From Verrucomicrobiota bacterium (lineage in GTDB: Bacteria; Verrucomicrobiota; Verrucomicrobiia; Chthoniobacterales; UBA10450), in NCBI GenBank assembly GCA_019244415.1, contig JAFASN010000030.1, positions 1-64,000 of the forward strand: a stretch of DNA of 64,000 nt, in the 5' to 3' direction. A program made the position numbers and the translations under genes. The notes under the pieces are model-generated. The model ran no database searches. It was not told where the DNA came from and saw nothing but the letters and a program-made list of their open reading frames with translations. Numbering within the stretch: position 1 is the first letter of the stretch; the number at the start of each line of letters is the position of its first letter. Below are positions 21,942 to 58,246 of the stretch, in pieces.

Positions 21942-23957
21942 TTACGTGCAGCTGAAGAAACTCCGCTGATGTCCGATGCCGCGGCGGTAATTCACATAAG
22001 TGGCAAGCGCGAGCAGCGGAAAATTTTGCCGGTACATGTCGTATTTAAGGTAGAACACCTTCGGAAATCCCGTGCCGGTAATTTCCTTCTCATCCCAGGA
22101 GCCATCACTTTGCTGGGTCGAGAGTAGATAACGCAGACCGCGTTGCACACTCGGCCGATCAAGATCGCCGCAGGCGCACAATCCCATCAGCGCCCACGCC
22201 GTTTGTGAGGCGGTACTCGGGCCTTCTCCTTTCACCGACGGATTATCGTAGGTGGCGCAAGTTTCGCCCCAGCCACCGTCCTCATTCTGGCAGCTCTCGA
22301 GCCAGTCGCGCCCGCGTAAAATCCAGTCCTGCGTCATCTCCTGACCGATGGCGCGCAGCCCCCGCAAAACCTGCCATGTGCCATAAATGTAATTCACGCC
22401 CCAGCGACCGTACCACGAGCCATCATCCTCCTGAGTTTCCATGAGATAGCGCAACGCCCGCTCGACTGACTGATCGCGTTTATCGAAATCGATGTAGCCG
22501 AAAAGCTCGAGTGTGCGCGCCGTGAGATCACTGCACGTCGGATCAAGAATCGCGTTGTGATCGGCGAAAGGCATGTTCTCGAGCCAGCCATCGATCACAT
22601 CCTTGTCGAACGCAGCCCAGCCGCCATCGCGACACTGAAAGCTGAGCTGCCACCGGAGTGCGCGGTTGAACATCTCGTGGTAGGCGGCGGCGTCGTTCGG
22701 CTGCACGAGCCGCAGCGCCATCAGTACCATCGCCGTATCATCGGTGTCCGGGTAGTACACGTTGTTGTACTCAAAGGCCCAGCCGCTCGCTTCGGGGTGC
22801 TCGTTGTTCATGGCCCAATCGCCGCGGAAACGCACCTCCTTTTCGAGCAGCCATCGCGCAGCCCGTTGCAGCGCCTCATCCTCGGGTGACACTCCGCTTT
22901 CCGCGAGCGCGATGATGTTGATGGCCGTATCCCAAACCGGCGAGAGACACGGTTGAATGCGGAAATTCCCCGGGTCATCGACAAACAGTGTGGCGAAATC
23001 CTGCTGCGCTTTGATGAACACCGGGTGCGTGGCCGGATAGCCGAGCGCACGCAGTGCGATGAGAGCGTTCAGCATTGCCGGGAAAACGGTGGCAAGACCG
23101 TCGCTCCCCTCGCCGATTCGGTCGAGCATCCAGCGCTCGGCTTCCTCCAGCGCGCGCCGCCGGAACGGCTTCCAGTCGATGCGTTGCAGCACCTTGAGTA
23201 CGTCGTCCGCGCGGAGAAACAAATTGCGCCAGGTGAGTGCGCGCTCGTCACGCGGCAGCCGGAAATCGCGGTGCTCGGTCCCGAGAGGATAAAGCTCGTG
23301 CAGATGCAGCTCGCCCGGCAATTCACGTGTGGGTTTAAAATGATTGATGATGGCGAGAGGCACGAGCATGGCCCGGCTCCAGCTCGACATTTTGTAAATG
23401 TGAAACGGTGACCACGTCGGCAGCAGGATCATCTCGACCGGTATGGTCGGCAGATATTTCCATGGGAATTGTCCTAGCAGCGCGAGGTAAAGCTTGCTGA
23501 ACGTGTTCATGCGCGGGATGCCGCCGAGGCGCAGAATGTTGGCGCGCGCTTCCCGCATGAACGGCAGATCAGTCGAGTACCCGGCGAGCTTTAAGGCAAA
23601 GTACGCCTTGACCGATGCATTGATCTCGCTCGGGCCGCCGAAGTAAATGTTCCAACCACCGTCCGGTAACTGCCGCCGGATGATGTGTTGCGCGCAGCGC
23701 TCCTGGAGCTGCCGATCCACATCGCCCAGCCAGTGCATGTAAAGCACGTAATCAGAGCAAAGCGTACTATCGACAAACAACTCGCCGCACCAGTGGCCAT
23801 CTGGCTTTTGCTGGCGGAGCAGGTTCTCTTGCGCGCGAGAAATGGCGGACGCGATCTGCGGATCGTCCGCGGAGTAGGCGTTTGCGCGTTCCGGTCGCGC
23901 GCTTGGAAGCGAGACCAGGTTTAGAGGTTGAGAGGTTGAGAGGTTCAGAGCCCTCAC
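21942..23957 (-). CDS. shc: Squalene-hopene cyclase
   Basis: The roughly 671-residue enzyme cyclises squalene to hopene/hopanol, the first committed step of hopanoid synthesis. The catalytic DxDD motif is present as PDTDDTAM near residue 404. Repeated QW-type motifs are visible (QKPDGHWCGELF, CQNEDGGWGETC, TQQSDGSWDEKE). Length is normal. The start is odd: no ATG lies before residue 50. The best start is a GTG at 23957 overlapping the stop codon of the upstream gene (GTGA). The first 15 or so residues (RALNLSTSQPLNL) are then encoded by the GAGAGGTTGA-type repeat. A TTG at 23963 is an alternative. Confidence 0.95.
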   Translation of the reverse strand: MRALNLSTSQPLNLVSLPSARPERANAYSADDPQIASAISRAQENLLRQQKPDGHWCGELFVDSTLCSDYVLYMHWLGDVDRQLQERCAQHIIRRQLPDGGWNIYFGGPSEINASVKAYFALKLAGYSTDLPFMREARANILRLGGIPRMNTFSKLYLALLGQFPWKYLPTIPVEMILLPTWSPFHIYKMSSWSRAMLVPLAIINHFKPTRELPGELHLHELYPLGTEHRDFRLPRDERALTWRNLFLRADDVLKVLQRIDWKPFRRRALEEAERWMLDRIGEGSDGLATVFPAMLNALIALRALGYPATHPVFIKAQQDFATLFVDDPGNFRIQPCLSPVWDTAINIIALAESGVSPEDEALQRAARWLLEKEVRFRGDWAMNNEHPEASGWAFEYNNVYYPDTDDTAMVLMALRLVQPNDAAAYHEMFNRALRWQLSFQCRDGGWAAFDKDVIDGWLENMPFADHNAILDPTCSDLTARTLELFGYIDFDKRDQSVERALRYLMETQEDDGSWYGRWGVNYIYGTWQVLRGLRAIGQEMTQDWILRGRDWLESCQNEDGGWGETCATYDNPSVKGEGPSTASQTAWALMGLCACGDLDRPSVQRGLRYLLSTQQSDGSWDEKEITGTGFPKVFYLKYDMYRQNFPLLALATYVNYRRGIGHQRSFFSCT
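23923..23945 (-). repeat. Tandem GAGAGGTTGA-type repeat, right flank of four-helix-bundle gene
   Basis: On the plus strand the unit GAGAGGTT(GA) occurs about three times. It is the inverted counterpart of the repeat at 24328-24352. It lies just downstream of the four-helix-bundle gene and at the same time encodes part of the N-terminus of the squalene-hopene cyclase. Confidence 0.8.
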
Positions 23958-24322
23958 GAGCAAAGCTGCGCGGTACGCAACGCGTTTAGCTGGCGCGAGA
24001 CTGATTCGATCAGGTCGCGAAGCGTTTCTTCGTCGCCAGCTTTCGCGAAACCCAGATCGGCGGCCACGATCAACAAACAGGCAAGCTCCATGAGAGATCC
24101 ATAAGCGATTTGCGAGAAGCGCGCCTGGTCCCTACGGCTGGTTCGGCCCGAGCCTTCCGCCAAGTTCGCCACGAGCGACACAGCAGCGCGATTGATCTGC
24201 GAAGTCAGGCCGTAAAGCTCACGCTGCGGAAAACCATTCGTGACCTGATAAACGTTCTGCACCAGCTCACGCGCGCTCTGCCAGACGCGCAGCTTCTCGA
24301 AAGGATAGGCGTGTCGCGCCAT
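23954..24322 (-). CDS. Four-helix-bundle protein (S23/IVP family)
   Basis: The 122-residue protein has the family signature FEKLRVWQSARELVQNVYQV near the start, followed by YGLTSQINRAAVSLVANLAE and GSGRTSRRDQARFSQIAYGS. This identifies the four-helix-bundle family first found as open frames in 23S rRNA intervening sequences; its relatives include the Avd proteins of diversity-generating retroelements. The cellular role of stand-alone members is not settled. The ATG at 24322 is preferred over a TTG inside the upstream repeat. Its TGA stop overlaps the shc start. The gene is bracketed by inverted short tandem repeats, which suggests it arrived as a cassette. Confidence 0.9.
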   Translation of the reverse strand: MARHAYPFEKLRVWQSARELVQNVYQVTNGFPQRELYGLTSQINRAAVSLVANLAEGSGRTSRRDQARFSQIAYGSLMELACLLIVAADLGFAKAGDEETLRDLIESVSRQLNALRTAQLCS

Positions 24323-24327
24323 TGTTC

Positions 24328-24352
24328 TTCTCAACTTCTCAACCTCTCAACC
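24328..24352 (+). repeat. Tandem TCTCAACT/C repeat, left flank of four-helix-bundle gene
   Basis: On the plus strand TTCTCAAC-TTCTCAACC-TCTCAACC reads as three units. On the minus strand it is GGTTGAGAGGTTGAGAAG, the inverse of 23923-23945. The hpnH stop codon (TGA, 24347-24349) lies inside it, and the repeat ends 5 bases before the four-helix-bundle ATG. Confidence 0.8.
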
Positions 24353-25675
24353 GACTTTCGCCGCAACTTCCGGCGCGCGTTTTCCGGTCAGATGGCCATT
24401 CCCCGAGCTCACGCCGTTAAATACCGCGATCTCGTTTCCGCGGCCGTTGCTTTTCGGCCGGGCGCCGAAGTTGAACTTGATCGTTTTCCACGTGTCGCCC
24501 CGCTTGGCTTGCAAACCGAGGCTGGCCGTCGGCTCATAGCCGCAATGGGTCATGCAATTCTCACAGCGCGGATCGCGCGCTACGCCATCAACGACGCCGT
24601 ACTTATCCCAATCGACGCTCTCCAGCAGCTCAGCGTAGCTGCTAAAATGCCCCGTTCCGTTTGTGCCGACGGCATCCGTCATGAAATAGCACGGCGCTTT
24701 CCAGCCGCGAAGGTTGCGCGTAGGAATCGCCCAGGCTGAGCAGGTCAGCTCGCGGTGGCCGGCGAGAAACTCGAAGTAAATGGGCGTTCCGAAAAACGTG
24801 TAGCGGTTCATCCATTCATCCATCCGCGCAAACTTCTCGACCGTACTTTTGCGGGTAAGAAAGAAGTTTTCCGGCTGCAAATTCAGCCGTTTGATCATGT
24901 CGCGCTTGGCCGCATCGTAATCGTAGCCGGGAGTGATGGTGTGGCCGTCCACGCCGAGGTCGCTCAGGAAATCGAACATCTGCTCCACTTCATCCATGTC
25001 GGTTTCTTTATAGATGGTGGTGTTGGTAGCGACCTGGTAGCCCAGCCGTTTCGCCATTTTGATGGCGAGAATGCATTCCTTGAAAACGCCTTCGCGCTCG
25101 ACGATCAGGTCGTGCGTCCTCTCGAGCCCATCGAGATGGACATTCCAGTACATCCACTTACTCGGCGCAATGGTGATTGGATTTCTGATTTCTGATTTCT
25201 GATCTCTGATTTGGGCGGCGTCCTTCTCGTTGATCAACCCTTCAGCAAGCAACGCATCGAGCTTGTGCTCCAGCTCATTTCGCATTCCGCCTTTCGCATT
25301 CCGCAATTCCAGCCGAAGCCACTCGCGCATTTTTTTGCGCATGAACATGGCGTTGGTGCAGACGTAAACGATGCGGCCTTGCTCGAGCAGGCCATTGATC
25401 AGCGCCTCGATGTGCGGATAAATCAGCGGCTCGCCGCCGCAGATTGAGACCATCGGCGCATTGCATTCCTGGGCGGCGCCGAGGCAATCCTCCAGCGGCA
25501 TCATGTCCTTTATTGAAGTCGAGTACTCGCGGATTCGCCCGCACCCGGTGCAGGTGAGATTGCAGGTATGCAGCGGCTCGAGCTGAAGGACGGTGGCGAA
25601 TTTCTTCGTGCCCCGAAGCTTATGCCCCACGATGTACGCAGCGATCTTGCTGGTGAGGGCCAAAGGGAACCTCAT
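24347..25675 (-). CDS. hpnH: Adenosyl-hopene transferase HpnH (radical SAM)
   Basis: The roughly 442-residue enzyme joins the adenosyl group of SAM to hopene to make adenosylhopane, the entry to side-chain-extended hopanoids. The radical-SAM cysteines are CNLTCTGC (Cx3Cx2C) near residue 33, and SICGGEPLIYPHIEAL follows. The C-terminal part contains GHRELTCSAWAIPTRNLRGW and further cysteines (CENCMTHCGYEP). The ATG at 25675 (MRFPLALTSKIAAY) is preferred to an upstream start. About 50 residues around 115-166 look inserted relative to family members I know, and this stretch is partly encoded by simple repeats. It lies upstream of shc in the same direction. Confidence 0.94.
   Translation of the reverse strand: MRFPLALTSKIAAYIVGHKLRGTKKFATVLQLEPLHTCNLTCTGCGRIREYSTSIKDMMPLEDCLGAAQECNAPMVSICGGEPLIYPHIEALINGLLEQGRIVYVCTNAMFMRKKMREWLRLELRNAKGGMRNELEHKLDALLAEGLINEKDAAQIRDQKSEIRNPITIAPSKWMYWNVHLDGLERTHDLIVEREGVFKECILAIKMAKRLGYQVATNTTIYKETDMDEVEQMFDFLSDLGVDGHTITPGYDYDAAKRDMIKRLNLQPENFFLTRKSTVEKFARMDEWMNRYTFFGTPIYFEFLAGHRELTCSAWAIPTRNLRGWKAPCYFMTDAVGTNGTGHFSSYAELLESVDWDKYGVVDGVARDPRCENCMTHCGYEPTASLGLQAKRGDTWKTIKFNFGARPKSNGRGNEIAVFNGVSSGNGHLTGKRAPEVAAKVG
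25180..25213. repeat. In-frame simple repeat (ATTTCTG units) inside hpnH
   Basis: Plus-strand ATTTCTG is repeated three times perfectly, followed by ATCTCTG and ATTTG. On the coding strand it yields QIRDQKSEIRNP. Intergenic-type simple sequence within a coding frame is unusual. Confidence 0.8.
25278..25304. repeat. In-frame direct repeat (TTTCGCATTCCGC x2) inside hpnH
   Basis: Two copies of TTTCGCATTCCGC are separated by one C. On the coding strand it gives LRNAKGGMRNE. Together with 25180-25213 it delimits the extra segment in HpnH. Confidence 0.75.

Positions 25676-58211: not shown

Positions 58212-58246
<35 letters not shown>

Follow-up and report, generated by a model that had tools for sequence, protein, structure and literature searches.

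What is a small gene of the S23 family doing between hpnH and shc, and why is it enclosed by short tandem repeats that face each other? S23 genes, also labelled "four helix bundle protein," are common and unexplained small bacterial genes that owe their name to inserts in ribosomal RNA. In the window (the whole 64,000-nucleotide stretch of DNA that was analysed), the genes follow one another as hpnH, S23, and shc, all on the minus strand. We put the probability at roughly 0.7 that the unit in their middle is one copy of a widespread small mobile element of about 420 to 570 nt, in which an S23 gene is carried between inverted arrays of 7- or 8-base units.

The hpnH-S23-shc locus

A sequence-only reading of this DNA had described a 122-residue S23/IVP-type gene between hpnH and shc on one strand, and profile matches confirm all three genes (Table 1). 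The S23 frame matches PF05635 with E 3e-33 and 114.5 bits (cut-off 33.8) over profile positions 1-106 of 106, and this full-length match above the curated cut-off places the protein in the family. It also matches PDB entry 2gsc (E 1.7e-25) and, weakly and below the cut-off of that profile, bAvd.

Table 1. Features of the hpnH-S23-shc locus, in window positions
Feature	Position	Strand	Description
shc (squalene-hopene cyclase), downstream host gene	21942..23957	minus	SQHop_cyclase N and C matches
3' arm	23926..23949	minus	TCTGAACCTCTCAACCTCTCAACC on the minus strand; inverted-repeat partner of the 5' arm
S23 / 23S_rRNA_IVP (PF05635) gene	23954..24322	minus	122 aa, ATG start
5' arm (S23 sense)	24329..24352	minus	GGTTGAGAGGTTGAGAAGTTGAGA, 8-mer array; holds the hpnH stop
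hpnH, upstream host gene	24347..25672	minus	PF11946 and radical SAM; 3' end within the 5' arm
S23-less 7-mer array in the hpnH frame	25180..25212	minus	AATCAGA on the minus strand
Second S23-less 7-mer array in the hpnH frame	25276..25310	minus	GGAATGC type on the minus strand; the two arrays are about 65 nt apart

The tandem repeats of opposite orientation proposed around S23 are likewise real: the arms are 24-nt inverted repeats, 92% complementary, and TRF places 8-mer arrays at 23917-23950 and 24327-24351. The inverted-alignment score of 38, against 16.6 +/- 2.5 (maximum 27) in shifted controls, lies beyond all 131 of these, so the inverted repeats are not due to chance. The element folds into a closed stem, better than its shuffles do (z -3.9). 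Farther along the window, at 58212-58246, lies a perfect hexamer array (ACGAGC x 5.8).

The repeats had been assigned to the host genes the wrong way round, with the hpnH stop on the left and the shc start on the right: it is the right array, the 5' arm, that holds the stop (TGA, 24349..24347), and the left one that encodes the first Shc codons. The 3' arm is stop-free in the shc frame and supplies part of a new Shc N-terminus (..LNLSTSQPLNL..), near which the only start candidates are a GTG (23957) and a TTG (23963), both within the element. The stop codon of S23 shares bases with the likely GTG start in the sequence GTGA (23957..23954); the shc start is therefore apparently within the element, and in the window its translation may be coupled to that of S23. 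Both host genes keep an open reading frame despite the element. The two arrays inside hpnH are in frame; some congeners have an IRNPQSAIRD-like sequence there, and most other genera a EIRKGPKDPAKPTIGPS-like one.

Empty, occupied, and exchanged junctions

Among 58 relatives, hpnH lies next to shc in nearly every case where one contig shows both genes. Junctions that lack the cassette, for which the earlier reading had suggested a search, were found in eight same-genus species and in most of the family. In congeners the empty junction is short (e.g., ..AAAGTTTCCTGATCTCTTATGGCGACGAACTCGCCTAACCTGATTTCT..), with HpnH ending ..AKVS* at the point of insertion and Shc beginning MATNSPNLISLPSA; in the window it reads ..AAAGTCGG[arm-S23-arm]CTGGTCTCG.., where the arm ends HpnH and Shc begins ..LNLSTSQPLNLVSLPSA. 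The arm sequences are absent from the empty congener junctions, and no scar is visible in the eight same-genus species. S23 does occupy the junction in three further genomes from two other genera (G023, G035, and G030); in the last of these, the element is decaying, with S23 broken by stops (L051 204-533) and the arms still visible. Polarity at this site is read from the predominance of empty junctions in genus and family. A single origin at hpnH-shc is not rejected (AU p = 0.34), and there may have been one ancestral insertion with later losses; in the tree, the window S23 falls in a clade with copies at three other sites (L021, L072, and L077). The gap-pgk and metK-ahcY junctions, too, exist in occupied and empty versions among close relatives.

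Sites of S23 elements are mostly within-operon junctions, with flanking proteins checked against Pfam. They include sdhA|sdhB (two separate operons), gap|pgk, metK|ahcY, nuoB|nuoC, nuoD|nuoI, a cysD|cysN-type pair, MoxR|DUF58, a branched-chain amino-acid transporter pair, an AcrB-type transporter with its presumed upstream partner, an HlyD-type protein|ABC ATPase, and a TrxB-type reductase|glycosyltransferase. Other lineages contribute cas6|cas4 in Anabaena and an iron-sulfur assembly gene|sufB in Riemerella. A census of shared sites gave 48 singletons and 17 sites of 2-8 loci, one of which is a single locus counted twice (L011/L068). No clear short target-site duplication was present at the junctions inspected, of which the old ones have diverged.

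At some fixed junctions, the element changes as a block. At three sites, flanks are 85-97% identical between species and elements 50-59% identical, and the change falls at the arms. Along L091/L102, an identity of about 95% drops at the 5' arm to about 56% and recovers where the downstream gene starts; similar breakpoints lie at the arms in L031/L081, L031/L086, and L008/L066. In control pairs, body and flanks diverge in step (L113/L121, body 98.5%; L031/L029, body 76% and flanks 73-76%). At MoxR|DUF58, G005 and G009 share flanks of about 91% identity with G007 and G002, with S23 at 63-69% and differing arms, and the S23 of G005 is 83% identical to that of G021, though the flanks of G021 are at 79%. 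At one sdhA|sdhB site, G007 compares with G002 at 95% in the flanks and 69% in S23, and with G006 at 76.5% and 82%. At these two sites, flank identity is counted in nucleotides and S23 identity in amino acids. Breakpoints at the arms of differing elements at one junction thus delimit a unit with defined boundaries. In the aligned element pairs, no homologous exchange dragging flanking DNA along was seen. Exchange would look no different from separate insertions into a junction that was empty before. The comparison covers nearest relatives only, in draft assemblies, and the replacement signal comes from few sites, where rapid local evolution of the element may be at work instead.

No recent transposition was caught, and no near-identical copies at two sites, forming a donor-target pair, were found; related copies at different sites (L002, L021, L072, and L077) are about 65-68% identical in amino acids. 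Vertical descent with losses explains part of the variation, since most of it sits at shared junctions. In one rival reading, which we consider unlikely, the units are domesticated regulatory cassettes: old, mostly vertical modules of S23 plus hairpin that set the ratio or the processing of two messages, with S23 binding the mRNA stem, RNase III cutting it, and loss accounting for the patchiness. It would fit the recurrence of one subfamily at one junction in as many as 8 species, which in some cases belong to different families (the metK-ahcY subfamily is shared across f1, f7, and f12), the junctions that often lie between subunits of one complex, the closed stem of the window element, and the orientation of S23, co-directional with both neighbors in 68/92 cases by a rough ORF test. 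But it does not sit well with differing elements at one junction whose boundaries fall at the arms, with the scarless empty junctions of the eight same-genus species, or with Nostoc nrdB|nrdA, where the same arm architecture surrounds an S23 gene that is antisense to both neighbors. Nor do the stems bear it out: mismatches between arms show no excess of G-U (75 vs. 69 A-C), and selection on the stem at the RNA level is not evident for that reason. Purifying selection on S23, treated below, is a further point in its favor.

The mobile-element reading remains the one we prefer, and the relatives support what had been inferred for the window, namely a mobile cassette inserted at hpnH/shc that leaves both genes translatable: there are empty sites, arms elsewhere, and block differences at the arms. 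An ancient conserved gene order with repeats absent or unrelated in relatives, the pattern named beforehand as speaking against a cassette, was not found.

Arrays, remnants, and possible movers

Inverted arrays surround S23 genes in general. The source genome has five such genes, 5/5 bracketed by inverted arrays and each with its own unit (TTGATGG, TTGAGAGG, GAAGGAT, GATTTCT/GATGGCT, and GATTTGC). Among the relatives, the inverted-arm score averages 36.0 for 115 S23 genes, including the source genome's five, against 17.4 for 217 controls, and 88.7% of these genes lie above the 95th percentile of the controls. Scanning cyanobacterial and other plasmids along with a single genome for each species yielded 87 further loci, most from other phyla, with a mean of 40.7 vs. 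17.5 in controls and 88.5% above the control 95th percentile; these represent Verrucomicrobia, Planctomycetes, Bacteroidota, alpha-, beta-, and gamma-proteobacteria, cyanobacteria, Clostridia, Acidobacteria, Gemmatimonadetes, and others. Arms were sought from the edges of the S23 profile outwards, and some overlap the S23 C-terminus. The array period is 7 in 123/200 arms and 8 in 41/200, and elements measure 417-572 nt (5th-95th percentile). At one planctomycetotal locus (L182), the arms reach about 165 nt each, with more than 20 GTGGACG/A units. In the source genome (G000), the S23 element of locus L003 (G000:C40) has on each side a copy of about 100 bp from the 3' end of gltX (1322-1421 and 1868-1967, 83% identical). 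No relatives were found in viral contigs.

The expectation that the same repeat pair would recur around other S23 genes held in part: inverted arrays are there nearly everywhere, but the unit differs per element, and the idea that all S23 elements share one repeat family is rejected. The more closely two S23 genes match, the more alike are their 5' arms (Mantel r = 0.249, p = 0.0005, pairs below 60% identity), against r = 0.04 for the host flank in the same comparison. The spacer between arm and gene also tracks S23 (r = 0.23); common descent is therefore enough to produce the link, which may reflect descent rather than recognition. Pairs at different sites whose S23 proteins are at least 50% identical keep similar arms (score 17.3 vs. 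about 9): an arm moves along with its gene. The two arms of an element agree weakly in how unit variants are ordered (29/107 in the top 10% of shuffles), which lends little backing to the idea that one arm is an exact ordered copy of the other.

Two junctions show remnants of the element and competing inserts. At gap|pgk, 9/30 genomes (L274-L303) have S23, G000 has a lone 3' arm of S23 type (GAGCACCAGCACGAGCACGAG), and G033, G031, and G021 have inverted pairs of TGGAGTA units without S23. In G002, half of such a pair precedes the S23 element. This junction collects varied small inverted-repeat inserts: S23 elements, TGGAGTA hairpins, and GTCATCCCGAG and AGGATTAAC types. At metK|ahcY, some genomes have S23, in one case (L308, G009) as a decaying element with a shortened gene and arms still visible, and others have a PF13366 (GxxExxY) gene between inverted arrays. 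In 30 PF13366 loci (L334-L363), the inverted-arm score averages 41.8 vs. 19.8, and 26/30 score at least 28; the units are mostly 8 or 9 bases long (e.g., ACACGAAGG or CACAAAGGA). One such gene, at L313 1065-1484, shows the same inverted-array design as the S23 elements.

In 389 kb sampled from the source genome, there are 25 period-7 arrays vs. 2 in a shuffle, several of them S23-less. Inverted 7-mer pairs without S23 lie between genes at L249 11161-11252 and L253 16477-16619, with loops of about 14 and 80 nt; these short-loop pairs look like non-autonomous copies. Given S23-less arm pairs and solo arms, movement in trans, which the sequence-only reading had allowed for, is no more than plausible.

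What moves the element? It encodes no recombinase, nuclease, or reverse transcriptase (RT). dN/dS of S23 is mostly 0.06-0.34; most of the tested pairs are under purifying selection, so the protein has some function. A DDE transposase is rejected as the mover, as S23 and DDE_Tnp_1 counts are uncorrelated in the 58 relatives. It is very improbable that S23, like its paralogue bAvd, serves an RT that copies element RNA: bAvd works with an RT, and the weak bAvd match of the window protein speaks for relatedness, but RVT_1 has no match in 34 S23-bearing genomes (G000 and 33 others) and S23 and RVT_1 counts show no correlation (rho -0.19). An RT in trans as a general requirement is rejected on the strength of those 34 genomes.

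In the 58 relatives, S23 copy number goes with the number of Y1_Tnp genes (rho 0.66). That correlation would suit a further rival, to which we give little credence, in which certain junctions tolerate any hairpin insert and S23 is a passive passenger of, for example, Y1/RAYT transposases; several unrelated inverted-repeat inserts at gap-pgk in different species, and the presence of either S23 or PF13366 elements at metK-ahcY, would suit it as well. But three genomes have S23 without Y1_Tnp, the arms follow the S23 subfamily, and Y1_Tnp genes in the same genomes end in REP palindromes rather than 7-mer arrays; for this last reason, Y1/RAYT is set aside as the mover and regarded as a parallel but separate system.

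Under the mobile-element reading, a sequence of steps can be proposed. The element would land in the gap between two operon genes, where its 5' arm would end the upstream gene, because a TGA-containing 7-base unit puts stops in all three frames. The complementary 3' arm, mostly stop-free, would leave the downstream gene an open frame and often a new start. Stop triplets in all frames number 234 in 5' arms and 106 in 3' arms. An insert can thus fit an operon, since one unit stops the preceding gene and its complement leaves the next one open. The element would ride on host transcription. Its S23 protein putatively recognizes its own arms, as DNA, or as RNA or a single-stranded DNA foldback, and would recruit host enzymes that copy or move the unit; at times it would also act on arm pairs that lack S23. 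The intervening sequence (IVS) of 23S rRNA, in its classical form, would be this element after it had inserted into a hairpin of the rRNA.

Comparison with known systems

RAYTs are HUH nucleases; S23 is not known to have catalytic activity. RAYT genes (TnpA-REP, Y1_Tnp) resemble S23 in being small genes within inverted repeats of their own type, several per genome, with non-autonomous repeat copies elsewhere. They differ in their ends, REP palindromes as opposed to 7-8-base tandem arrays, and in the gene inside, which here is S23, with Y1_Tnp genes located separately. The bAvd protein of diversity-generating retroelements is a related four-helix-bundle protein that needs an RT, whereas S23 occurs in genomes with no RVT_1 match. 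GxxExxY elements (PF13366, PDDEXK_3) share the inverted short-unit arrays and the metK-ahcY junction, and differ in protein family and in their 8-9-base units.

Heptamer arrays have been known for years in cyanobacteria and Xanthomonas without an origin. The STRR heptamers of the former and the GGGAATC arrays of the latter are dispersed 7-base tandem arrays, often in inverted pairs, and have been treated in Xanthomonas and Nostoc as repeats only, with S23 unmentioned (PMC4692102). Here, heptamer arrays are seen as the arms of S23 genes, including on Nostoc and Calothrix plasmids, and in the open-access literature we found no link of S23 (beyond Coxiella) or of GxxExxY to such arrays. As the gene now turns up between heptamer arrays in many phyla, the question of their origin becomes directly testable. 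A broader proposal, which we advance tentatively and hold to be somewhat short of an even bet, is that of a categorically new, pan-bacterial, transposase-free class of mobile element: a non-catalytic four-helix-bundle protein (in a sister class GxxExxY, a PD-(D/E)XK-like protein) would recognize a self-specific short-unit array, and the unit arm-gene-arm would spread via host enzymes through operon junctions, with the STRR and GGGAATC heptamers as products and the rRNA IVSs as a minor branch.

Among the closest known systems are the IVSs of 23S rRNA with an S23 ORF (Coxiella, Leptospira, and Xanthomonas), which, like the window element, have a terminal inverted-repeat stem around that ORF, measure about 430 nt, and are patchily distributed. 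They lie in an rRNA helix, whereas the window element lies between protein-coding genes, at hpnH/shc. A further defining trait of the classical IVS is its excision by RNase III. S23 in our sample is an operon-junction element with no sign of rRNA: a heuristic scan without a positive control detected no 23S motifs in any S23 locus it covered, and a comparison of 20 of these loci with Rfam turned up no rRNA. In Coxiella, the S23 ORF is believed to yield no protein; here, most S23 pairs tested are under purifying selection. The Coxiella IVS combines an S23 ORF with a 28-bp terminal stem and carries, at its 5' end near S23, three GACAGAT heptamers whose copy number varies between strains (PMC4990558). 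This published IVS has the same anatomy. We conclude that S23 elements form a pan-bacterial class of small mobile elements and that the rRNA IVSs are one special case of it.
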